A stretch of DNA of 35,546 nt from Synergistaceae bacterium (GTDB lineage Bacteria; Synergistota; Synergistia; Synergistales; Aminobacteriaceae). The stretch covers positions 1 through 35,546 of the forward strand of contig JAISUL010000043.1 of the NCBI GenBank assembly GCA_031272145.1, read 5' to 3'. Shown piece after piece: positions 3,000-35,055 of this stretch (position 1 is its first letter; each line of letters begins with the position of its first letter). The position numbers and the translations under genes were made by a program. Under the pieces are notes generated by a model. It had not been told where the DNA came from and made no database searches. It saw only the letters and a program-made list of their open reading frames with translations.

Positions 3000-3644
3000 A
3001 TGAGCGGCAAGATCAAGGCCAAGGTTAAGCAGAAAATGGGCGCGGGCGTGAAAAAGATCCGCAAGAAGGCGGCAGGGGCGGTTAAAGTGATGAACCTGCC
3101 CAACATCCTGAGCCTGACGCGGGTCTTCCTTGCGCCGCTGGTGCTGCTGTTTTTGTCGGTGCACATCAGCGGCCCTGTGCATTTTTTGGACTTCTTGGGC
3201 GCCGCGCCGACGTGGGGTGACCTGCTGGCCGGAGGGGTCTTCATCGTAGCGGCCCTGACCGACTCGCTCGACGGCTACATCGCGCGCAAGCACAAACTTG
3301 TCACCACGCTGGGGAAGTTCATCGACCCCCTGGCGGACAAGGTGCTGGTCATAGCGGCGATGGTCAGCCTGGTGGAGCTCCACAGGGTTCCGGCGTGGCT
3401 GGTGGTCGTCATCATAACGAGGGAGTTCGTCGTGACTGGCCTCAGGCTCGTTGCGGCGGCGGAGGGGCAGGTCATAGCGGCGTCCGGCGGGGGGAAGCTG
3501 AAGACGGTGATTCAGATCATAGCGGTGATACTGCTGATTCTAGACCTACCCGGCGGCCTCGCTATGATGTGGCTGGCTATGGTTCTCACGGTGTGGTCGG
3601 GTATGGAGTACCTGATCAGCGGGGCAAAAATGCTAATGGAGTAG
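3000..3644 (+). CDS. pgsA: CDP-diacylglycerol--glycerol-3-phosphate 3-phosphatidyltransferase
   Basis: This membrane enzyme makes phosphatidylglycerol phosphate from CDP-diacylglycerol and glycerol-3-phosphate. The CDP-alcohol phosphatidyltransferase signature D-x2-DG-x2-AR-x8-G-x3-D-x3-D is complete in DSLDGYIARKHKLVTTLGKF followed by IDPLAD. NLPNILSLTR opens the first membrane segment, and several further hydrophobic helices follow. The ATG at 3000 has a G-rich ribosome site in front; an in-frame GTG at 2991 is possible but sits too close to it. Unusual for the family is a lysine-rich, probably amphipathic N-terminal extension of about 30 residues before the NLPN motif. It lies in an apparent operon with the ligase upstream and topA downstream. 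Confidence 0.9.
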   Translation: MSGKIKAKVKQKMGAGVKKIRKKAAGAVKVMNLPNILSLTRVFLAPLVLLFLSVHISGPVHFLDFLGAAPTWGDLLAGGVFIVAALTDSLDGYIARKHKLVTTLGKFIDPLADKVLVIAAMVSLVELHRVPAWLVVVIITREFVVTGLRLVAAAEGQVIAASGGGKLKTVIQIIAVILLILDLPGGLAMMWLAMVLTVWSGMEYLISGAKMLME

Positions 3645-6131: not shown

Positions 6132-7811
6132 TTAGTTATTCATGGCCTCTATCAACTCGGCCAGGGCGGGGGTGCCCTTCAAGCCCTCATTTCCGTTGGC
6201 GTGGGAGAGAACGTCGTCTCCGTCGTTATCCCGCGCCTTGGGGTCAGCACCGGCTTTGAGCAGGATGGAGAGCGCCTTAGGATTGTTGTTGTGCGCGGCA
6301 CCCATCAATGGCGTAAAGCCGTCCATGCTCTTCGCGTTGACATTGGCACCGGCTCCCAGCAGGGCGGCGATCACATGGGTACTGTTGCCACAGGCAGCGG
6401 CCATCAAAGCCGTCTCGCCGTAAGTGTCCTTAGCGTTGACGTCAACTCCAGCTTTGAGCAGGAGAGAGATCACCTCAGGGTTATGGTTGAGCTCGGCGGC
6501 TAATGCTAAAGCTGTTCTGCCGTACTCGCCTTTCGCATTGAGATCAGCACCGGCCTTGAGCAGGACGGAGATCGCCTCAGGGTTGCTGTTGTACCGCGCA
6601 GCGTACAACAAGGCCGTCTCGCCGTTATTGTCTTTCGCGTTGACGTCTGCCCCAGCTTCGAGCAGGGCAGAGATCGCCTCAGGGTTGCTATTGGCGGCGG
6701 CGGCGCACATTAGGGCAGTCCAGCCCTCCTTAAAACAGCCAGCGCTCTTCGCCTCGACGTCTGCACCGGCTCTCAGCAGGACGGAGATCACCTCGGGGTT
6801 ACTGTTAAACTTAGCGGCACCCATCAAAGCCGTCAGGCCGTCAGGACTCCTAGCGTTGACGTCCGCCCCAGCCTTGAGCATGGCCGAGATCACCTCAGGA
6901 TTGCTGTTGAGCCCAGCGGCGGTCATAAAAGTTGGCACACCGTTCTTGTTCGTCACGTCGAGATCGGCTCCGGCATTGAGGAGTGCGGAGATCACCTCGG
7001 CATTGCGGTTGAACTCGGCGGCGATCATTAAAGGCGTCGAGCCGTTATTGCTCTTCGCCTCGATATTTGCCCCGGCTGCGAGCAGGACGGAGATCACTTC
7101 AGGGTTACTGCTATTTTTAGCGGCACCCATCAAAGCCGTTAAGCCGCCCTTGTCTCTCGCGTTAACGTCCGCCCCCGCTTTGAGCAGAACGGAGGCTACC
7201 TCAGGGTTGCTGTTGCCATAGGCGGCGAGCATCAAGGCCGTCACGCCGCCTCTGTCCTTCGCGTTGACGTCCGCCCCGGCCTTGAGTAAGACGGAGATCA
7301 CCTCAGGGTTGCAGTTGTTAGCGGCGGCGTACCGTAGGGGAACTCCACCGTTTTCGTCGCATGCGTCTACGTCTACCCCGGCTTTGAGCAGAACGGAAAT
7401 CACCTCAGGATTTCCGTTAGACTTAGCGGCGTACATTAAGGGCGTCCAGCCGTCGGCGCTCTCCGCGTTGGCATCTGCCCCTGCATTAAGCAGGACGGAT
7501 GTCACCTCAGGATTACTGTTACCAAGGGCTGCGAGCATCAATGCCGTCAGGCCGTTCGTATCTTTCGCGTTGACGTCCGCCCCCGCCTCGAGCAGAACGG
7601 AAATCGCTTCAGGGTCACTGTTATTAGCGGCGGCATATCGTAAGGGCGATCCGCCGTGTTCGTCACATGCGTCTACGTTGACGGGTGTGAGCACGGTATG
7701 CCAACCGCCACGCTGCATCTTGTAGACCCCGTCGTTAATAGCCTCTTTGATTTCCTGAGGCGTCCCGGTTCTGCAGAGTGCGATGAAGCCGTCAAGCAGC
7801 AACTTCGTCAT
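6132..7811 (-). CDS. Ankyrin-repeat protein (array member 1, 14 repeats, no signal peptide)
   Basis: This 559-residue protein is made almost wholly of ankyrin repeats. Residues 1-55 form a cap (TKLLLDGFIALCRTGTPQE, then a YKMQRGGWH insert) shared with its neighbours. About 14 repeats follow, most of them 34 residues long with the pattern TALMxAAxxNSNPEVISVLLKAGADVNAKDxxG. A C-terminal cap (LKGTPALAELIEAM) closes it. Repeat 9 holds an extra short loop (SAGCFKEGW). The long inter-repeat asparagine runs and the near identity of many repeats point to recent internal duplication. AGGAGG lies about 9 bases before the ATG at 7811. No signal peptide or membrane segment is seen, so it is probably cytosolic. 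It would be the last gene of the minus-strand array. Partner proteins are unknown. Confidence 0.88.
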   Translation of the reverse strand: MTKLLLDGFIALCRTGTPQEIKEAINDGVYKMQRGGWHTVLTPVNVDACDEHGGSPLRYAAANNSDPEAISVLLEAGADVNAKDTNGLTALMLAALGNSNPEVTSVLLNAGADANAESADGWTPLMYAAKSNGNPEVISVLLKAGVDVDACDENGGVPLRYAAANNCNPEVISVLLKAGADVNAKDRGGVTALMLAAYGNSNPEVASVLLKAGADVNARDKGGLTALMGAAKNSSNPEVISVLLAAGANIEAKSNNGSTPLMIAAEFNRNAEVISALLNAGADLDVTNKNGVPTFMTAAGLNSNPEVISAMLKAGADVNARSPDGLTALMGAAKFNSNPEVISVLLRAGADVEAKSAGCFKEGWTALMCAAAANSNPEAISALLEAGADVNAKDNNGETALLYAARYNSNPEAISVLLKAGADLNAKGEYGRTALALAAELNHNPEVISLLLKAGVDVNAKDTYGETALMAAACGNSTHVIAALLGAGANVNAKSMDGFTPLMGAAHNNNPKALSILLKAGADPKARDNDGDDVLSHANGNEGLKGTPALAELIEAMNN

Positions 7812-7828
7812 GCGAAAAACCTCCTAAT

Positions 7829-7862
7829 CTTAGTAGGGAGAACTAAGGGAAATGCTCCCCCT
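7829..7862 (-). other. Small hairpins between ankyrin genes 2 and 1
   Basis: GGGAG at 7836-7840 can pair with CTCCC at 7855-7859, and alternatively CTTAGT with ACTAAG around 7829-7847. These alternative weak stems lie directly upstream of the AGGAGG of ankyrin gene 1, like the stronger hairpins at the other two spaced junctions. Confidence 0.35.
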
Positions 7863-9342
7863 AATGCATCATGGCCTCTATTAACTCGGTTATGGCGTGG
7901 GTACCCTTCAACGTCTCGTTCTCGTTGGCGTAGGTGAGGACGCTATTGCCGTTGTTGTCCAACGCCTTGGGTGCGGCGCCGGCCTTAAGTAGGATGGAGA
8001 TCGCCTCAGAGCTGCGATTGAACTCAGCAGCGAGCATCAAGGTCGTTACGCCGTCATTGTTTTTCTCGTTGACATCTGCCCCAGCGTAGAGCAGGGCGGC
8101 GATCACCGTGAGGGATCTGTCCTTAGCGGCACACATCAATGCCGTCCAACCGCTGTTGTTTTTCGCGTTGACATCGGCCCCGGCCTTCAGTAAGACAGAG
8201 ATTACCTCGAGATCTGGGATGTCGGAGCTTACAGCGTACCACAAGGCCGTATTGCCGTCTTTGCCCTTTGCATTGACATCTGCCCCAGCTCCCAAAAGAA
8301 CGGAGAGCACAGGAGCATTGTTATGCCTAGCGGCATACAATAAGGGTGTCACACCGTCAGTGCTTTTTGCGTTAACATTGGCCCATGCTCCCAGGAGCGC
8401 GGATATTGCTGCAAGATTGCACTTGCAGGAGCGCATGGCGCACAACAATGCCGTCCAACCGCTAGTGCTTTTCGCATTAACATCTGCCCCTTCCTTCAGT
8501 AAAGTGAAGATCATAGGAAGGTTGTTGTGCTCGACGGCGCACATTAAGGCCGTCCAACCGTCAGTAGCCTTCATGTTGACATCTACTCCAGCCTTGAGCA
8601 GGGTAGAAAACACTTCAGGTCTACGGTTAATTTCAGCGGCTAATGCTAAGACAGTTCTGCCGTCATTACTCTTCGCGTTGATGTCTGCTCCAGCGTTGAG
8701 CAGGACGGAGACTACCTCAGAATTGCTGTTGCCTCCAGCGGCGCACATTAAGGCAGTCCAACCGTCCTTGTTCTTCGCCTTAACATCCGCCCCAGCATTG
8801 AGCAGTACGGAGATCAGCGCAGGGTTTTGGTTGTTTCCGGCAGCATCCATCAAAGTCGTGTTGACATCTATTATCCCTGCTTTGAGCAAAGTTGAGAGCA
8901 TATAGGTGTTGTTGTTTGCAACGGCGTGCCTCAAAACTGTGATGATATCTGCCCCTGCTTCGATGATGGCCGATAGTACGGCTGGGTGTCGGTCGTTCTC
9001 AACGGCGTACATCAAGGGCGTCCAGCCGCCATTGCTCTTAGCGTTGATACGTGCTCCAGCTTTGAGCAAGATGGAGAGTGTTTTAGGAAAGGGGTTGGAA
9101 TCGGCTGCGTACATCAAGGCTGTCTTGCCGTCATTGTCCTTCGCGTTGACATCTGCCCCAGCGCAGAGCAAGACGTAGACCGCCTCAGGGTTACTGTTGA
9201 ATGCAGCGGCATACATCAATGCCGTCGAGCCGCTGGTGCTCTTCGCATTGACGTCGCCCCCGACTTCGATAGCCTTCTGAATCTCCTGAGGCGTTCCGGT
9301 TTGACAGAGCTCGATGAATTTCGCAATCAACAACTTTCCCAA
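7861..9342 (-). CDS. Ankyrin-repeat protein (array member 2, about 13 repeats, degenerate start)
   Basis: The 493-residue frame has the shared opening (GKLLIAKFIELCQTGTPQEIQKAI) of the short-cap type, passing directly into DVNAKSTSG. About 13 repeats follow; the third and fourth (around residues 105-160) are eroded and have lost their loops. The C-terminal cap is LKGTHAITELIEAM. The start is uncertain: the position of the neighbours' ATG is a TTG at 9342 with GGGGG only one base away, and a TTG at 9333 has better spacing. The DNA is visibly less GC-rich than the flanking housekeeping genes (some 60-base stretches near 8461 are about 43% GC). Poor start, eroded repeats and lower GC suggest an older or decaying copy. 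Confidence 0.8.
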   Translation of the reverse strand: MGKLLIAKFIELCQTGTPQEIQKAIEVGGDVNAKSTSGSTALMYAAAFNSNPEAVYVLLCAGADVNAKDNDGKTALMYAADSNPFPKTLSILLKAGARINAKSNGGWTPLMYAVENDRHPAVLSAIIEAGADIITVLRHAVANNNTYMLSTLLKAGIIDVNTTLMDAAGNNQNPALISVLLNAGADVKAKNKDGWTALMCAAGGNSNSEVVSVLLNAGADINAKSNDGRTVLALAAEINRRPEVFSTLLKAGVDVNMKATDGWTALMCAVEHNNLPMIFTLLKEGADVNAKSTSGWTALLCAMRSCKCNLAAISALLGAWANVNAKSTDGVTPLLYAARHNNAPVLSVLLGAGADVNAKGKDGNTALWYAVSSDIPDLEVISVLLKAGADVNAKNNSGWTALMCAAKDRSLTVIAALLYAGADVNEKNNDGVTTLMLAAEFNRSSEAISILLKAGAAPKALDNNGNSVLTYANENETLKGTHAITELIEAMMH

Positions 9343-9376
9343 ACCCCCTAAACTCTATGCACAGTTTGACTCCAGC

Positions 9377-9850
9377 CTATCGATTCGCGGCCTCCGTCAG
9401 CTCGGCCAGGGCTGTGGTGTCCTTCAAATTATCGTTTTCGTTGGCGTAAGCTAGGACGCTGACTCCGTTGTTGTCCTTCGCCTTGGGGTCGGCGCCGGCT
9501 TTCAGCAGGGCCGAGATCACCTCGGGGTTGCCGTTGTACGCGGCGGCGAGCATCAAGGGCGTCCATTCGCCGGCCGTGGTATTTGTAACGGCGTTCACGT
9601 CGGCACCGGCCTTGATGAGTGCGGAAACAGCCCCAGGGTTGGGGTTGGAGGCAGCGGCGATGGTCAGGGGCGTCCAGCCGCCATTCGACTGTGCGTTAAC
9701 GTTGGCTCCGTCGGCAATGGCCTTCTGAACGTCCTCAGGCGTCCCGGCGGCGCAGAGCGCGATGAACAATTCATCCGCGCCCACGGCTGCGGCGATGCCC
9801 GCGCAGACAAGCGTGGCGAGCGCAACAACCAAACAAAGCGACTTTTTCAT
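9377..9850 (-). CDS. Secreted ankyrin-repeat protein (array member 3)
   Basis: This 157-residue protein begins with a clear signal peptide: KK, then the hydrophobic LCLVVALATLVCAGIAAA, with cleavage likely after AVGA. The mature part starts DELFIALCAAGTPEDVQKAI, which aligns with the cap of the cytosolic neighbours. Two full ankyrin repeats follow, the first with an inserted TNTTAGEW loop, and then the C-terminal cap (LKDTTALAELTEAAN). Export would place it in the periplasm or outside the cell. GGGAGG precedes the ATG by about 8 bases. It follows array member 4 by 15 bases and is very likely co-transcribed with it. Confidence 0.87.
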   Translation of the reverse strand: MKKSLCLVVALATLVCAGIAAAVGADELFIALCAAGTPEDVQKAIADGANVNAQSNGGWTPLTIAAASNPNPGAVSALIKAGADVNAVTNTTAGEWTPLMLAAAYNGNPEVISALLKAGADPKAKDNNGVSVLAYANENDNLKDTTALAELTEAANR

Positions 9851-9865
9851 GAATAAAACCTCCCG

Positions 9866-10426
9866 CTAATATTTTGCTGCCTTTATCAACTCGGCCAGGA
9901 CAGGGGGTACCTGCAAGGCCTTGTTCTTGGCGGCGTAGGACAGGACGCTGTTTCCGCTGGAGTCACGCGCCTTGGGGTCGGAGCCGGCTTTGAGCAGGGC
10001 GGAAATCACGTCGGGGTTTCTGTTGAACTCCGCGGCGTACATCAAGGGCGTCTTGCGGCCTGGGCCTCTCGCGTCCACGTCTGCCCTGGCCTTGAGCAGG
10101 ATGGACGTGGCCTCAAGGCTGCGGTTGTACCGCGCGGCGTACATCAGGGGCGTCAAGCCGCTGTAGTCCTTCGCATTGACGTTTGCCCCGGCCTTCAGCA
10201 GGGTCGACAGCACCTTGGGGTTGCTGTTGAACTCGGCGGCGTACATCAAGGGCGTCCGGCCGTTCATGTACTTCGCGTTGACGTCGGCGCCGGCGTCGAT
10301 GGCCTTCTGGACGTCCTGAGGCGTCCTGTTGCGGCAGATCGAGATAAATGCCTCCGTGCTAACGGCAGCGGCGGCGACGCCGGAGTAAACAAACATGGCG
10401 AGCACAACGAGCAGCAGTCTTTTCAT
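9866..10426 (-). CDS. Secreted ankyrin-repeat protein (array member 4)
   Basis: The 186-residue protein has an N-terminal signal peptide (KRLLLVVLAMFVYSGVAAAA, cleavage likely near AAA-VS). The cap that follows (TEAFISICRNRTPQDVQKAI) matches the rest of the array. Three ankyrin repeats starting TPLMYAA follow, then the C-terminal cap (VPPVLAELIKAAKY). It and member 3 are the only exported ones. AGGAGG precedes the ATG, and the stop codon of member 5 lies only 12 bases upstream, so members 5, 4 and 3 form a tight transcription unit. No membrane anchor or lipobox is seen. Confidence 0.87.
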   Translation of the reverse strand: MKRLLLVVLAMFVYSGVAAAAVSTEAFISICRNRTPQDVQKAIDAGADVNAKYMNGRTPLMYAAEFNSNPKVLSTLLKAGANVNAKDYSGLTPLMYAARYNRSLEATSILLKARADVDARGPGRKTPLMYAAEFNRNPDVISALLKAGSDPKARDSSGNSVLSYAAKNKALQVPPVLAELIKAAKY

Positions 10427-10438
10427 GAATAAGACCTC

Positions 10439-12025
10439 CTAGTTAGTGTGCGTAGACTGATAGCGGCTCATGGCATCTATCAGCTCGGCTATGACGGGGC
10501 TGCCTCTCAGCGCCCTGTTTGCGTTGGCAGCGGCGAGGGCGTCGTCTCCGTCCTTGTCCAGCGCGTTGGGGTCGGCGCCGGCTTTGAGCAGGATGGAGAT
10601 CGCCTCAGGGTTGCTGTTTTGCGTAGCGCACATCAATGCTGTCGTGCCGCGATTGCTCTTCACATTGACGTCGGCGCCGGCTTCCAGCAGAGCTGAGATA
10701 ACAGGGGCGCTGCTGCAATGGGCGGCAATCATCAAAATCGTCTCGTTGCGAATGTCCTTGACGTTGACGTCGGCGCCGGCTTCCAGCAGGACGGAGATTA
10801 TCTCGAGGCTGCGGTTGTACTGAGCGGCTAATGCCAAGGCCGTCCTGCCGTCCTCGTTCTTTGCGTTGACGTCGGCGCCGGCTTCCAGCAGGGTGGAGAT
10901 CACCTCGGGGTCTTTGTTGTATTTCGCGGCGTAAAACAGCGCCGTCTCGCCCATATCGTCGCGTGCATTTACGTCTGCACCGGCGTTGATCAGGGCGGAG
11001 ACCACGGCGGGGCTGCTGACGTCGGCGGCGAACGTCAGCGCAGTCCAGCCATTTATGACCTTTGCGTTGACGTCGGCTCCGGCGTCTATCAGGAGCGAGA
11101 ACACATCAAGGCCGTGCCTAAACTTAGCGGCAAGTATCAATGCCGTCAAATTCTCAGCGCTCCTGGCGTTTACGTCGACTCCGGCCTTGATCATGGCCGC
11201 TATCACCTCCGGGCCGCGGTTGGCTGCTAGGGCGGATACCAAAGGCAGCACGCCGTTATTGCTCCTAGCGTTGGGGTCGGCGCCGGCGTCCAGCAGAGCG
11301 AAGATAGCCTCTGGGTTGCTGCTGGAATCGATGGCGTCTCCCAGGGCCGTTGCGCCGTACTTGTCCTTCGCATTGACGTCGGCTCCGGCCTTTAGCAGCG
11401 TGGATATAACCTCGGGGTTGCTGTTATACTCGGCGGCTAGCATCAATGCCGTCCTGCCGCTCGGGTCACTCGCGTTGACGTCCGCGCCGGCGTCGAGCAG
11501 GGCTGTTATCACCTCCGTGTTGCTGTTGAAGCCGGCGGCAGTCATGAAAAGCGGCACGCCGTTCTTGTTCTTCACGTTGACATCGCCTCCGGCCTTGAGC
11601 AGGGCGGCCACAACCTCAGGATCGCGCTTGGACTCGACGGCGCACGACAAGGCCGTCCCGCCGTCGATGTTGTCCTTAACGTTCACGTCGGCTCCGGCCT
11701 TGAGCAGGGCGTAGATCACCTCAGGGCTGCGGTTAAACTCAACGGCGAGCCTCAAGGCCGTCCCGCCGTTCTTGTCCTTAGCGTCCACGTCGGCTCCGGC
11801 CTTGAGCAGGACGGAGATCACCTCGGAGTTGCTGTTGTTGGCGACGGCGTACCTCAAGGCCGTCCTGCCGCGCTTGTCGCATTCGTCCACGCCGACGGGC
11901 ACGTACTCGGGATGCGAACCGCCCTTAATCTTCTTATAGACACCGGTGTCGATGGCATCCTTGACCTCCTGAGGCGTCCCGGTTCTGCAGAGCGCGACGA
12001 AGTCATCAATCAGCAGCTTTTTCAT
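10439..12025 (-). CDS. Ankyrin-repeat protein (array member 5, 13 repeats)
   Basis: The 528 residues comprise the long-cap opening (KKLLIDDFVALCRTGTPQE plus a YKKIKGGSHPEYVPVGVDE insert), 13 ankyrin repeats of mostly 34 residues and the C-terminal cap (LRGSPVIAELIDAMSR). An eight-residue tail (YQSTHTN region) is found in no neighbour. There is no signal peptide. Repeats 4 to 8 are more diverged in their loops than those of member 1, and the gene looks more GC-rich than member 2. AGGAGG stands about 9 bases before the ATG at 12025. Confidence 0.88.
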   Translation of the reverse strand: MKKLLIDDFVALCRTGTPQEVKDAIDTGVYKKIKGGSHPEYVPVGVDECDKRGRTALRYAVANNSNSEVISVLLKAGADVDAKDKNGGTALRLAVEFNRSPEVIYALLKAGADVNVKDNIDGGTALSCAVESKRDPEVVAALLKAGGDVNVKNKNGVPLFMTAAGFNSNTEVITALLDAGADVNASDPSGRTALMLAAEYNSNPEVISTLLKAGADVNAKDKYGATALGDAIDSSSNPEAIFALLDAGADPNARSNNGVLPLVSALAANRGPEVIAAMIKAGVDVNARSAENLTALILAAKFRHGLDVFSLLIDAGADVNAKVINGWTALTFAADVSSPAVVSALINAGADVNARDDMGETALFYAAKYNKDPEVISTLLEAGADVNAKNEDGRTALALAAQYNRSLEIISVLLEAGADVNVKDIRNETILMIAAHCSSAPVISALLEAGADVNVKSNRGTTALMCATQNSNPEAISILLKAGADPNALDKDGDDALAAANANRALRGSPVIAELIDAMSRYQSTHTN

Positions 12026-12047
12026 GCATAAAACCTCCTAGTTCTAA

Positions 12048-12073
12048 TAGGGGGACATTGACTGCCCCCCCTA
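12048..12073 (-). other. Intergenic hairpin between ankyrin genes 6 and 5
   Basis: TAGGGGG and CCCCCTA arms (7 bp) flank a loop containing GACTG. A second small GGGG/CCCC stem follows at 12081-12093. There is no T run on the minus strand, so it is more likely a processing or stability element than a terminator. The loop resembles the one at 13181-13187. Confidence 0.5.
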
Positions 12074-12095
12074 GGGAATAGGGGAAACGCCCCCG

Positions 12096-13148
12096 CTAGC
12101 GGCTCATGGCGTCTACCAGCTCGTCTATGATAGGCGCGTCTCTGAATGTCGAGTTTGTCATGGCGTTGGCTAGGGCGTCGTTCCCCCTTTCGTCCAGCGC
12201 GTTTGGGTTGGCGCCGGCCTTGAGCAGCATGGAGATCGCGTCGGGGGAGCCGTTGTGTCCGGCGCTCATCAATGGCGTTACGCCCCTATTGCTCTTCGCG
12301 TTGACGTCGGCGCCGGCGTCGATCAAGAGGGAGACCACGGCGGGGACGTTGAAGTGTGCGGCGGTCATCAACGCCGTCTCGCCGTAAATGTCCACCGCGT
12401 TTGGGTCGGAACCGGCCTTGAGCAGGACGGAGACCACCTCGGGGTTGGGGTTGTTGTCAGCGGCCAATGCCAATGCCGTCCTGCCGTACTCGCCCTTTGC
12501 GTTGATATCCGATCCGGCTTTGAGCAAGGCGGAGATCACCTCAGGGCTGCTGTTGCGCCGCGCGGCGCACAACAGGGCAGTCTCTCCGCTATAGTCTTTC
12601 GCGTTGACGTCTGCCCCGGCTTCGAGCAGGGCTATGGTTACCTCGTGGTTGCTGTTGAACTCGGCTGCGTACAACAAAGCTGTCAGGCTCCTACTGTCCT
12701 TCGCATTGACGTCAACCCCGGTATTGAGCAGGACGGCGATAACCGCGGAGTTGCTGTTGCGCGCGGCACCCATTAAAGGTGTCTGGCCGCTCTTGTTTGT
12801 TGCGTTGACGTCGGCTCCGGCTTTCAGCAGGACGGAGACCACCTCAGGGTTGTCGTTGGCATATGCGGCGAGCATCAATGCCGTCACGCCTACAGTGTCC
12901 TTCGCGTTGACGTCAGCGCCGGCATTGAGCAGGACGGAGATCACGTCGGGGTCGCGGTTGTTGTTGGCGGCGCACCTTAAGGGCGTTCCGTCGCGCTTGT
13001 CGCACGCGTTTACGTCGACGGGCGCGAACACTGGGTGCGAATCGCCCTTAGTCTTCTTGTAAACCCCGGAGTCGATGGCCTCCTGAACCTCCTGAGGCGT
13101 CCCGATTTTGCAGAGCTCGGTAAAGTCATCAATCAGCAGCTTTTTCAT
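12096..13148 (-). CDS. Ankyrin-repeat protein (array member 6, 8 repeats)
   Basis: The 350 residues consist of the long N-terminal cap (KKLLIDDFTELCKIGTPQE, with the insert YKKTKGDSHPVFAPVDVNA), eight ankyrin repeats and the cap FRDAPIIDELVDAMSR. The third and seventh repeats are one residue shorter (33). It most resembles member 7, and the two may be the most recent duplicates: the caps end in almost the same IIDEL(V/I)DAMSR. No signal peptide. AGGAGG lies 9 bases before the ATG. Confidence 0.88.
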   Translation of the reverse strand: MKKLLIDDFTELCKIGTPQEVQEAIDSGVYKKTKGDSHPVFAPVDVNACDKRDGTPLRCAANNNRDPDVISVLLNAGADVNAKDTVGVTALMLAAYANDNPEVVSVLLKAGADVNATNKSGQTPLMGAARNSNSAVIAVLLNTGVDVNAKDSRSLTALLYAAEFNSNHEVTIALLEAGADVNAKDYSGETALLCAARRNSSPEVISALLKAGSDINAKGEYGRTALALAADNNPNPEVVSVLLKAGSDPNAVDIYGETALMTAAHFNVPAVVSLLIDAGADVNAKSNRGVTPLMSAGHNGSPDAISMLLKAGANPNALDERGNDALANAMTNSTFRDAPIIDELVDAMSR

Positions 13149-13174
13149 GCATAAAACCTCCTAGCTTTATAAAG

Positions 13175-13193
13175 GGGGGCACCGACTGCCCCC
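13175..13193 (-). other. Intergenic hairpin between ankyrin genes 7 and 6
   Basis: GGGGGC and GCCCCC form a 6-bp stem around the loop ACCGACT. Position and loop are like those of the hairpin at 12048, which suggests that hairpin, ribosome site and gene were duplicated as one unit. Confidence 0.5.
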
Positions 13194-13210
13194 TAGGAAA
13201 AACGCTCCCG

Positions 13211-13858
13211 TCAGCGGCTCATAGCGTCTATCAGCTCGTCTATGATTGGCGTGCCTCTGAAGGCCAAGTTACTGGTGGCGTAAGCTAGAGCGTCGTTCCC
13301 GTCCTTGTCCAGTACGTTTGGGTTGGCGCCGGCCTTGAGCAGCAGGGAGATCACCGTGGGGTGGCGGTTGTACCGCGCGGCGTGTGACAGGGCTGTCAAG
13401 CCGTTCTTGTTCTTCGCGTTGACGTCAACCCCGGCATCGAACAGTGCGGCGATAACCGCGAGGTTGCTGTTGTGCGTCGCGCCGACCAAAGGTGTCTGCC
13501 CGTTATCGTCTTTTGCGTTGACATCTGCTCCGGCTTTCAGCAGGACGGAGACCACCTCAGGGTTGTTGCCATAGGCGGCGAGCATCAAGGCCGTCACGCC
13601 GCTACGGTCCTTCGCGTTGACGTCCGCGCCGGCATTGAGCAGGACGGAGATCGCCTCGGGGTTGCGGTTGTTAGCGGCAGCGTACCTCAAGGCCACCCCG
13701 CCGCGCTTGTCGCATGCGTCCACGCCGACGGGCACGTACTCTGGATGCGAACCGCCCTTAGTCTCCTTGTATATCCCGGCGTCGATGGCCTCTTGAATCT
13801 CCTGAGGCGTCCCGGTTTTGCAAAGCGCGATGAAGTCATCGAGCAGCAGCGTTTTCAT
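13211..13858 (-). CDS. Ankyrin-repeat protein (array member 7, 4 repeats)
   Basis: The 215 residues carry the long cap (KTLLLDDFIALCKTGTPQE, insert YKETKGGSHPEYVPVGVDA), four ankyrin repeats and the cap FRGTPIIDELIDAMSR. It is the shortest cytosolic member. It is the first gene after an intrinsic terminator, so it is either the head of the main array transcript or reached by read-through from member 8. GGAGG lies 9-10 bases before the ATG at 13858. No clear promoter could be assigned between terminator and start. Confidence 0.87.
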   Translation of the reverse strand: MKTLLLDDFIALCKTGTPQEIQEAIDAGIYKETKGGSHPEYVPVGVDACDKRGGVALRYAAANNRNPEAISVLLNAGADVNAKDRSGVTALMLAAYGNNPEVVSVLLKAGADVNAKDDNGQTPLVGATHNSNLAVIAALFDAGVDVNAKNKNGLTALSHAARYNRHPTVISLLLKAGANPNVLDKDGNDALAYATSNLAFRGTPIIDELIDAMSR

Positions 13859-13881
13859 GGGTGCTACCTCCTATAAGATAG

Positions 13882-13912
13882 AAAAAATATCGGGAGCCGT
13901 GCAACTCCCGAT
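13882..13912 (-). terminator. Rho-independent terminator between ankyrin genes 8 and 7
   Basis: On the minus strand an 8-bp perfect stem (ATCGGGAG/CTCCCGAT, 8-base loop) is followed by ATTTTTTC. It lies about 120 bases after the stop of member 8 and 25 bases before the start of member 7. It would either end the member 8 transcript or attenuate expression of the seven-gene array. Confidence 0.75.
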
Positions 13913-13947
13913 TGTTCCAAAAGCCCAAGGGCTCCATGCCTCCAGCC

Positions 13948-14016
13948 GCAAAACAGCGCAAACGCCGTCCGCATGCCCAATAGGCTGGCGTGGGATGATC
14001 TGTTTGCGCTGTTTGC
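13948..14016. repeat. Long inverted repeat between ankyrin genes 8 and 7
   Basis: GCAAAACAGCGCAAAC (13948-13963) is the reverse complement of GTTTGCGCTGTTTGC (14002-14016) apart from one extra A. The 38-base interior holds no reading frame. It could be a strong RNA hairpin at the end of member 8 or a remnant of a small mobile element. Confidence 0.65.
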
Positions 14017-14030
14017 CGCCCTACCCCATG

Positions 14031-14813
14031 CTATAGGAGATCATCGCGCCAATCCCAAAAGGACAGGTCAATCCCCAGCGGTTCGTCAGACCCAAGCTTG
14101 CGCTTGAGCGCGAAGAAGACATCCGTGTTGGCGTTGAGCCTGGCGTAGGCAAGGACGTTCTTGCCCCTGTTGTCCTTGGCGTTGATGTCGGCACCCTCCC
14201 TGAGCAGAAGGCCGACGCCCCAGGGTTTGAAGTTGGACGCGGCGGCGAGCATCAGGGGGGTTGCGCCATCGTTGTCGCGCGCGTTGACGTCGGAGCCGCC
14301 GTCGACCATGGCGTAGAACAGCACAGGGTTCAGGCCAAGGAAACGGCTGCACACGACCAGCCACATCAGGGCAGTCCAGCCGTTACTGCTCCTTGCGCTG
14401 GTGTCGGCCCCGGCCTTGAGCAGGCGGACGATCGCCTCGTGGCCCATATCGCGAATGGCGGCGTTCATCAGGGCGGTTAAACCGTTCTCGTCCTGTGCGT
14501 TGACGTCGGCCCCGGCATTCAGCAGGGCGGAGATCACGTCCGGATCGCCGCTGTAGTACGCGGCGTACATCAGGGCGGTCGCGCCGTGAGCGTCCTTCAA
14601 GTTGACGTCGGCTCCGGCTTTCATCAGAACTTTGAACAAGCCATAGTCGCGGCGGGCAAGGGCCAGCATCAGGGCGGTAAAGCCGCTATCGTCCGCGAGA
14701 TCGGGGGATGCCCCTTCGTCGAGGGCACGCTGCATCCAGGCGGCAGCCGTCACCTTGGGCTCCGCATCCTTCTTGAGGAGGGCGTTAGAGCCCTCAGACA
14801 CCAAATCAGACAT
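14031..14813 (-). CDS. Ankyrin-repeat protein (array member 8, divergent, 5 repeats)
   Basis: This 260-residue protein differs from the other seven: it lacks their N-terminal cap and instead begins SDLVSEGSNALLKKDAEPK with a short helical region (AAWMQRALDEG). Five ankyrin repeats follow, the fourth with an insert (VVCSRFLGLNPVLFYAMVDG), and then an acidic/aromatic tail ending SFWDWRDDLL. The ATG at 14813 has AAGGA upstream at good spacing; the ATG at 14822 would overlap that ribosome site. It has its own -10 box and is followed by its own terminator, so it is probably a separate unit. It may represent the older gene next to which the array expanded, but that is inference. Confidence 0.82.
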   Translation of the reverse strand: MSDLVSEGSNALLKKDAEPKVTAAAWMQRALDEGASPDLADDSGFTALMLALARRDYGLFKVLMKAGADVNLKDAHGATALMYAAYYSGDPDVISALLNAGADVNAQDENGLTALMNAAIRDMGHEAIVRLLKAGADTSARSSNGWTALMWLVVCSRFLGLNPVLFYAMVDGGSDVNARDNDGATPLMLAAASNFKPWGVGLLLREGADINAKDNRGKNVLAYARLNANTDVFFALKRKLGSDEPLGIDLSFWDWRDDLL

Positions 14814-14834
14814 GGAAATCATCCTTTCCAGTAA

Positions 14835-32641: not shown

Positions 32642-32650
32642 AATTTGGTG

Positions 32651-33973
32651 ATGTCCAAAGAAGATCGCAAGCTCGACATAATGCTTTGGGTCGTGGCCAT
32701 AGGGTTCTTTATGCAGACCCTTGACTCCACGATAGTCAATACCGCTCTGCCGTCCATAGCAAAAAGCCTGAACGTTAGCCCCATGAATATGGAGTCCGTC
32801 GTCTTCTCCTACTCGCTCATGGTCGCCATGATGACGCCGGCCTCCGGCTGGCTCGCCGACAAGATAGGCACGCAAATAGTCTACCTCTTCGCCGTGTCCA
32901 TCTTCTCGATAGGCTCGTTCCTCTGCGCCATCTCGGACAACCTGACATTCCTCGTGTGCTCACGCGTCATTCAGGGCTTCGGCGGGTCGATGCTGCTTCC
33001 CGTCGGGCGACTGGCCATCATGCGCAACTTCCCGAACGAAAAGTTCCTCCCAGCCATCAGCTTCATGGCTGTGCCAGGCCTCATAGGCCCGCTGCTCGGT
33101 CCGACGCTCGGCGGCTGGCTCAGCGAGGACTTCTCGTGGCACCTCATCTTCCTGATAAACGTCCCCTTCGGCGTCCTTGGCATAATCGCCACGCTGCTGT
33201 ACATGCCAAACAACTCCATACCCGTGCACAGGTTTGACGTCGAGGGCTGCCTGCTGGTCTCCTGCGCCATGGCCGCCTCGACCGTCGCGCTCGGCGGCAG
33301 CGACATGGGCATCTCCGTATGGGCGTGCGTATCCTTCGGCGTCCTATTCGTGGCGTCTACCGCGGCCTACATCCTGTGGTCGTTCAAGACCCCTCACCCC
33401 CTCTTCGACCTCAGCATGTTCAGGATCAGGAGCTTTTCTATCGGCATATCGGGCAACCTGTTCGCCCGCATAGGCATCAACGCAATGCCCTACCTGCTGC
33501 CCATACTCTTCCAGACCGGCATGATGTACTCGCCCGGACGTGCCGGCATGATGATGCTCCCGCAAGCCACGGCGGCCATACTGGTCAAGCGTCCTGCGAC
33601 GCCGCTCATAAGGCACTTCGGCTATCGGAACGTGCTCATAGTGAACACCATACTGGTGGGTACGACCATGGCCATGTTCTCAGTGGTCAGCGCGGACGTG
33701 TCCCTGTGGGTCGTATGCGCGCTGAGCTTCGTCATGGGCGCCGTAAACTCGATACAGTTCACGGCGATGAACACCTACACCCTGGCCGACCTCCCCCAGG
33801 ACGTGGCGAGCGGTGGCAACTGCATGCTGTCCATGATGCAGATGCTGGGCATGACCATAGGCGTGGTGATCGCCGGCCTGATCCTGAGCCTGTCCGGGTC
33901 GTTCGCCTTCACGTTCATGGTGATGGGCTGCATAACGCTGCTGTCCACGAGCATATTCTGGAACGCAAAATAA
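32651..33973 (+). CDS. mdtD: MFS multidrug exporter, DHA2 family, MdtD-like
   Basis: This inner-membrane proton antiporter has about 14 predicted helices in 440 residues. The sequence follows E. coli MdtD closely in key places: GFFMQTLDSTIVNTALPSIA, PASGWLADKIG, SRVIQGFGGSMLLPVGRLA, GPLLGPTLGGWL, ARIGINAMPYLLPILFQ, and MNTYTLADLPQDVASGGNCM near the end. It lacks MdtD's extended basic C-terminus. The ATG at 32651 has no clear ribosome site; in-frame TTG (32645) and GTG (32648) precede it. The glycosyltransferase ribosome site overlaps its stop codon. Confidence 0.88.
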   Translation: MSKEDRKLDIMLWVVAIGFFMQTLDSTIVNTALPSIAKSLNVSPMNMESVVFSYSLMVAMMTPASGWLADKIGTQIVYLFAVSIFSIGSFLCAISDNLTFLVCSRVIQGFGGSMLLPVGRLAIMRNFPNEKFLPAISFMAVPGLIGPLLGPTLGGWLSEDFSWHLIFLINVPFGVLGIIATLLYMPNNSIPVHRFDVEGCLLVSCAMAASTVALGGSDMGISVWACVSFGVLFVASTAAYILWSFKTPHPLFDLSMFRIRSFSIGISGNLFARIGINAMPYLLPILFQTGMMYSPGRAGMMMLPQATAAILVKRPATPLIRHFGYRNVLIVNTILVGTTMAMFSVVSADVSLWVVCALSFVMGAVNSIQFTAMNTYTLADLPQDVASGGNCMLSMMQMLGMTIGVVIAGLILSLSGSFAFTFMVMGCITLLSTSIFWNAK

Positions 33974-33985
33974 AGGAGAAAAATC

Positions 33986-35055
33986 ATGGTTTTTACGGAT
34001 GTCAACACCCTGAAACACGAGTATAATAGCGGAGAGCGGAGAGCGGAGAGCGGCACTGCGCCCCGATCGGCCTCTTCGTCTACAAGCGCCCTGACCACAC
34101 CAAGCGCACCCTAGAAGCCCTAGCCGCCAACGACCTAGCCCAAGAAAGCGACCTCTTCATCTTCTCCGACGGCCCGAAGGATAGCGATCCGCGTTCCGAG
34201 AAAGGCGTAGCTGCTGTCCGCGAGTACATACGCTCGATTGATCGAGGCCTCTTCAAGTCCATTTCAGTTCTGGAACACCGCACCAACCAAGGGTCGGCGA
34301 AATCCGTTATTTACGGAATAACCGACCTGTGCGACCGCTTTGGGCGTGCCGTTATCGTCGAGGACGATATTCTGACCGCCCCGCGCTTCCTGCGCTTCAT
34401 GAACGACGGGCTTGACGCCTACGAAAACGCCCCGCGGGTTTTCATAGTCGGCGGCCATTGGGCAATGAAGAGCAGGCCGGGAGACAAGGCGTTTTTCATC
34501 GACGCGCCGGGCGGAACGTGGGGCTGGGCTACGTGGAAGCGTGCATGGGATTTGTACGACTATCACGTGAAGGGCATTCAGGAATTCCTCAAAAATAAGC
34601 GCCTCGTGTGGGAATACGATCTGCGTGGGCGCTGCAACAACACGGCCATGCTGTTGCGCCATATCGAAGATCCCGATGTCTGGGACTGCATGTGGCATTG
34701 GAAAGTTTTCATGGAGAAGGGCATGACGCTCTACTCGCCATACGCCCTGACGAAGAACATCGGCTTCGGCGATGAGGCGACGCATACGCCTAAGGGGGGA
34801 GACTGGTGGGCTGACAACATCGACCTATCCATCGACCGCCCGATCCTCATGCCCGACAAAGTCGAGCCGGACGCGGAGCGGGAGGAGGAGCTCGCCAACG
34901 TGAACTACGTTGCGTCGTTCCGCGACCGCTGGAAGAACTGCGGCTTCACCCCGCGCGAGATAGTGAAGGCGGTGTTTTGGTTTTTCTACAGGCCTTTGCG
35001 GTACATCGAGATGATCATGCCGTTTGGAATATCGTTCGGGATATACAAGCGCTAG
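33986..35055 (+). CDS. Glycosyltransferase (GT-A fold) with out-of-frame start; phase-off or frameshifted
   Basis: From 34030 to 35055 one frame is open and encodes a sugar transferase of the type found in surface-polysaccharide loci: APIGLFVYKRPDHTKRTLEAL, FIFSDGPKDSD, NQGSAKSVIYGI, the metal-binding VEDDI, then GGTWGWATWKRAWDLYDY. That frame has no ATG, GTG or TTG before 34399, which lies after the catalytic core starts. The only good start is the ATG at 33986 with AAAGGAG, but its frame hits TAG at about 34112. The two frames differ by +1 and are separated by a GCGGAGA tandem repeat (34029-34053). One more 7-base unit would join them into about 358 residues without a stop. A TATAAT also lies at 34022-34027. 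Pseudogene or assembly error are alternatives. Confidence 0.7.
34029..34053. repeat. Heptanucleotide tandem repeat (GCGGAGA) at the glycosyltransferase start
   Basis: Three full copies of GCGGAGA plus GCGG (25 bases). Seven is not a multiple of three, so each gain or loss of a unit shifts the frame. Confidence 0.9.

Follow-up and report, generated by a model that had tools for sequence, protein, structure and literature searches.

Most of what is known of repeat-based phase variation comes from host-living Proteobacteria and Campylobacterota. In Haemophilus influenzae and Neisseria, SSR contingency loci, which include lipooligosaccharide glycosyltransferase and mod genes, carry a non-triplet repeat near the 5' end, and the locus described here likewise places such a repeat near the start of a probable surface-glycan enzyme gene whose register would decide its expression. 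It differs from them in belonging to another phylum, in carrying its repeat in a conserved start cassette that is common to unrelated genes, and in that the sequence and length of the repeat unit vary by locus.

Heptanucleotide SSRs occur in H. influenzae in the promoters of hmw1A and hmw2A and as an AACAACC tract near and within TonB-receptor genes, and in one strain a heptamer lies inside a reading frame with a frameshift (PMC2651432). The likeness to the present locus is one of 7-bp units tied to phase-variable surface genes. However, the hmw tracts lie in promoters and run to 13-38 copies, whereas here 3.7 copies lie in the coding leader of a glycosyltransferase gene. For Synergistetes/Synergistota no account of repeat-based phase variation was found in the open literature, most subscription journals being outside the scope of the search.

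The window analysed is the whole of a 35,546-nt stretch from a Synergistaceae bacterium (GCA_031272145.1, contig JAISUL010000043.1). The features of the locus, all on the plus strand, are as follows.

32645..33973, plus strand: upstream MFS transporter gene (Pfam MFS_1, E 1e-41)
33974..33979, plus strand: Shine-Dalgarno-like purine-rich region (AGGAG), right behind the MFS stop codon (from the sequence)
33984..34001, plus strand: conserved cassette start TC-ATGGTTTTTACGGATG, with start codon ATG33986 and codons M-V-F-T-D
33986..34114, plus strand: upstream-start frame as it stands, 42 codons, closed by TAG at 34112-34114 (from the sequence)
34022..34027, plus strand: TATAAT box immediately 5' of the tract (manual comparison of cassette copies)
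34028..34053, plus strand: heptamer array (AGCGGAG)3.7, proposed to act as the switch (Tandem Repeats Finder)
34054..35055, plus strand: intact glycosyltransferase frame, 333 codons and stop, out of frame with ATG33986

The start codon ATG33986 lies 12 nt past the stop of the MFS gene and is preceded by AAAGGAGAAAAATC. The glycosyltransferase frame, closed on its 5' side by TAA TAG at 34024-34029, stays open between 34030 and 35055. The first ATG, GTG or TTG in it is ATG34399, and a search of the window between the tract and the enzyme domain gave no usual in-frame start. Starting at ATG34399 would drop the N-terminal third of the product of this frame (P0001), including the E-D-D at residues 111-113 that is conserved in the alignment. 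A first-pass annotation had already described a catalytic frame lacking a usual start before 34399 and, in another frame, an ATG at 33986 with a good ribosome site and a stop at about 34112; both descriptions stand. It had counted 3.6 copies of GCGGAGA between them. The heptamer array is real, but Tandem Repeats Finder gives the unit as AGCGGAG and the count as 3.7 copies, in a perfect array of 26 nt.

The tract is thus a perfect tandem repeat inside a reading frame, with a unit that is not divisible by 3. The window has no other perfect array with a period of 4, 5, 7 or 8 and at least 3 copies, and when it was resampled 200 times under a first-order Markov model, no resample had a 7-mer run of 26 nt or more. 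Repeats of a different kind are found at 6132-14822 on the minus strand, where adjacent long ankyrin-repeat-like genes have internal DNA repeats of ~102 bp (33-34 residue units). An Rfam scan of 33800-34300 gave no known RNA. Gaining one heptamer or losing two would join ATG33986 to the enzyme frame in one continuous frame, with the 333 downstream codons intact, while other small changes fail. The 358 codons that the first-pass annotation gave for this joined frame are right.

We consider it highly probable, from the sequence, that this locus undergoes repeat-mediated phase variation and that the gene is OFF in the assembly. Translation would start at ATG33986 within the conserved leader (ribosome site, start codon, MVFTD and TATAAT box), and the leader frame would enter the heptanucleotide tract ahead of the GT-A catalytic domain. 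Replication slippage, presumably reversible, would alter the number of heptamers. The register of the assembly would give a 42-residue peptide and leave the enzyme OFF; since 7 is not divisible by 3, the enzyme would be made in only one of the three registers. What is directly seen is the anatomy of the sequence, its register, the intact frame, and the layout of leader plus tract at other loci and in other genera.

Searches of Pfam (E<=0.001), NCBIfam (E<=0.01) and, by sequence, the solved structures gave no match to P0001. Its AlphaFold model, built from a seven-sequence input, is good across most of the protein (mean pLDDT 81, pTM 0.82), and the best Foldseek matches of the model are POMGNT1 (E 8e-11) and GnT-I (E 7e-10). 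On this modelling P0001 is a GT-A glycosyltransferase. The GT13/GNT-I family (GnT-I, POMGNT1) shares the GT-A fold and supplies these best solved-structure matches, but P0001 is only about 11-13% identical to them and matches no Pfam family at the above threshold. Membership of the GT13 (GNT-I) class was considered and rejected, as the family's model PF03071 gave no match to P0001 and scored the paralogue on contig C105 of the same genome at 10.7 bits against a cut-off of 25.4. Homologues of P0001 at E 1e-10 occur in 16 of 188 Synergistota genomes, and most of those inspected have a start codon a few codons 5' of the A-P-I motif, without a repeat. Judging from the context of its relatives, P0001 probably modifies surface glycans.

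The tract of 3.7 copies is shorter than the at least 5 copies of longer units that published screens for hypermutable tracts require (PMC6321876). Because it is so short, the locus may switch at a low rate or may be locked OFF. In the latter case the tract would have shrunk below a useful switching length and the gene would be a pseudogene in the making, which we regard as rather improbable. The count compares with 6.4 copies in the C105 paralogue and 5 to 29 in other tracts of the genome, and decay is known in the family, a truncated C-terminal remnant near-identical to the end of the C105 paralogue lying on contig C83 (L024:119-205, minus strand). Against decay, all 333 codons are intact, the base pattern is coding-like (GC 0.56/0.41/0.77 by codon position) and the predicted fold is confident; moreover, reversion would take a change in repeat units only.

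Relatives of the gene also carry repeats. The C105 paralogue (69% identity across 325 residues) carries (GACGAGG)6.4 at the matching position, and its frame is open from an ATG next to the tract. In G068 (L035), which belongs to another genus, a homologue has an ATG, then (TCCTC)4, then an out-of-frame domain, and in a homologue from Synergistales bacterium MS502-76 (G004) the frame is broken by G14 inside the gene. Selection for a switch would leave such a pattern, with different repeats at or near one place, some of them in frame and others not. In addition, a gene of MS502-76 (L018:462-495) is open through (GA)17 and its product resembles that of the own-genome C38 gene, whose tract is (GCGGAAGC)15.6; the type of repeat thus differs here too at corresponding places.

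Two further repeats were seen in other Synergistota genomes. In G003, (GTACAGC)10 opens contig C153 (L028:1-70), about 150 nt upstream of another P0001-family glycosyltransferase, and in MS502-76 an apparently FkbM-like methyltransferase gene is broken at (GA)9 (L017:4289-4306).

These comparisons bear on two other explanations of the out-of-frame start. Programmed ribosomal frameshifting at the repeat, which would make the enzyme from the present sequence, could account for a long open stretch behind an out-of-frame start. However, the C105 paralogue is open without any shift, and the tracts at homologous places (AGCGGAG, GACGAGG, TCCTC and G14) differ in sequence and unit length. As they share no sequence there is no common slippery site, and the explanation, which we find hardly credible, was rejected. 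An error of sequencing or assembly in the tract would fit with the genome being a draft of 107 contigs. It is nevertheless very unlikely: the 26 nt are far below common read lengths, an independent homologue (G068) is also out of frame, and an error of this kind would itself require slippage by unit length.

The phase-variation reading gains context from the leader, as the locus appears to belong to a leader-plus-repeat cassette found on surface genes. We define this cassette as a start region RTGGTTTYTACKGATG (16 nt), a purine-rich ribosome site about 6-13 nt upstream, and a repeat with 3 or more copies that begins +41 to +46 from the motif start, with a TATAAT-like box adjoining. At the window locus the start and ribosome site occupy 33974-34001 and the tract begins at +42. 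The pattern TRGTGGTTTTTACGGATG, at up to 3 mismatches, has five copies in the genome of the window and none for a reversed-pattern control; a longer first leader pattern with variable bases gave only two copies. All five leaders precede a tandem repeat about 42 nt on, with a different unit at each and 5 to 20.8 copies at the four loci other than the window's.

Window: AGCGGAG x3.7, before the GT-A glycosyltransferase
C105: GACGAGG x6.4, before the glycosyltransferase paralogue
C59: GGTCGCC x5, before a GT4-type gene
C38: GCGGAAGC x15.6, before an unnamed gene that resembles the MS502-76 gene with (GA)17 (L018)
C16: CAGG x20.8, before an FkbM methyltransferase gene

Across Synergistota, the 16-mer RTGGTTTYTACKGATG occurs in 24 of 188 genomes, with up to 11 copies per genome, and its reversed pattern has no matches. 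A repeat of at least 3 copies stands behind 46 of the 54 unique exact Synergistales copies inspected, and in 44 of those 46 it starts at +41 to +46 from the motif. The repeat-bearing copies span six genera and two families. The other copies comprise arrays that are short or degenerate, one contig end and three matches apparently due to chance; the last (L159, L162 and L163, in other genera) have the 16-mer without a repeat and look accidental. In viral contigs, taken as an outside control, the 16-mer has 117 exact matches, none of them ahead of a repeat with 3 or more copies, and these too look accidental. An alignment of 48 cassette copies shows a purine-rich GGaGgtgA at -13 to -6 whose conservation far exceeds background, and the start codon is ATG or GTG with no other variation. 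The TATAAT-like box holds a conserved place between motif and repeat in variants such as TATAAT, TAAAAT, TACAAT and CATAAT, and because its reading frame varies it may serve as a signal in the DNA and not as codons.

The likely target gene in other genera is often found about 100-1000 nt downstream of the cassette, which therefore need not always act by frame fusion. The products of these likely targets mostly have hydrophobic, signal-like N-termini, and a few have BspA-type or GLUG repeats. A switch in the leader or in transcription, in which TATAAT is a promoter and the repeat, placed at the transcript start or within a leader peptide, sets expression through attenuation or RNA effects, would suit this distance from genes with signal-like N-termini, as well as the box that stays beside the tract though its frame varies, and terminator-like hairpins were seen by eye after two copies (L157 and L158). 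Yet the window has no usual in-frame start between tract and enzyme domain, the ribosome site ahead of the start codon is itself conserved, and the enzyme frames of C59 and C38 are likewise open from the tract. For the window locus we judge this kind of switch unlikely. The first-pass annotation had named the TATAAT at 34022 as a promoter that might tell against a frame switch; the box turns out to be a conserved part of the cassette before the repeat, with no usual in-frame start to serve, although it may contribute to transcription. The annotation's proposal of slipped-strand phase variation with the gene in the off state is itself supported by the heptamer of the paralogue, the pentamer of the out-of-frame homologue, the recurring cassette and the abundance of tracts in the genome.

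That abundance was assessed in 1.16 Mb sampled from the genome of the window (a draft of 107 contigs), which contains 41 tracts of period 2, 4, 5, 7 or 8 above length thresholds, compared with fewer than 1 expected from Markov resampling. In two relatives, sampled at 200 kb each (0.4 Mb in total), no tracts of these periods were found. The pattern (GA)11 has 386 overlapping matches in the genome of the window (G000), whereas 180 of 188 Synergistota genomes lack it altogether; besides G000, only G004, G022, G003, G001, G141, G147 and G029 have any. Extrapolation from the sampled tracts suggests ~40-45 such (GA) tracts in the whole genome. Many of the tracts lie in genes for glycosyltransferases (GT2, GT4, GT8 and one GT56/WecF-like gene) and for FkbM methyltransferases, of which there are several; a subtilase and a DegT aminotransferase gene also stand behind tracts, and of all these genes some are open and some out of frame. 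A loss of mismatch repair might have explained this abundance but was rejected, MutS and MutL both being present with open frames. MS502-76, which is rated 99% complete and has long repeats too, gave no MutS_I or MutL_C match, and mismatch repair may be absent there.

Further tracts were noted. A G13 tract lies at the point where a DegT/DnrJ/EryC1-type aminotransferase gene becomes open (L122:9076-9088). Three GTGCC-type pentamer arrays of about 10-13 copies (L092:14626-14690, L092:15820-15867 and L102:19641-19688) have similar flanks, without a long downstream frame. The genome of the window also has a second shared leader (L051:2093-2137 and 3371-3399, minus strand; L082:689-727, plus strand), in which a promoter-like stretch of about 65-90 nt, near-identical between the copies (GCCCGGCGTGCTATAGTC...GGAG), ends in an ATG fused directly to (GA)n, before different enzyme genes.

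The three copies of this second leader are 85-91% identical and carry (GA) in 22.5, 14.5 and 19.5 copies. Four leaders in G153 that are 88-94% identical have GCAA in 10.8 to 14.8 copies. Unequal copy numbers in duplicated leaders are an indirect sign, read from the sequences, that such tracts are unstable.

Taken more widely, we favour, with some reserve, the view that Synergistales have a reusable phase-switch cassette before many unrelated surface genes, in which the unit is freely replaced while the cassette is kept, and that this genome is unusually switch-rich for its phylum. The cassette would consist of the conserved ribosome site, the start codon, the MVFTD codons, the TATAAT box and a repeat at a fixed distance; its targets would be glycosyltransferases and a methyltransferase here, and secreted or lipoprotein-like products in other genomes. 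The mechanism of slippage is known, but a conserved cassette with exchangeable repeats in Synergistales is apparently undescribed. If true, such a conserved start cassette would offer a way to study the birth of switch tracts and their spread between genes. The sequence RTGGTTTTTACKGATG would be a simple handle for finding switchable surface genes in uncultured Synergistales, and many of the 'frameshifted' genes in Synergistales assemblies are probably switched off, not dead.
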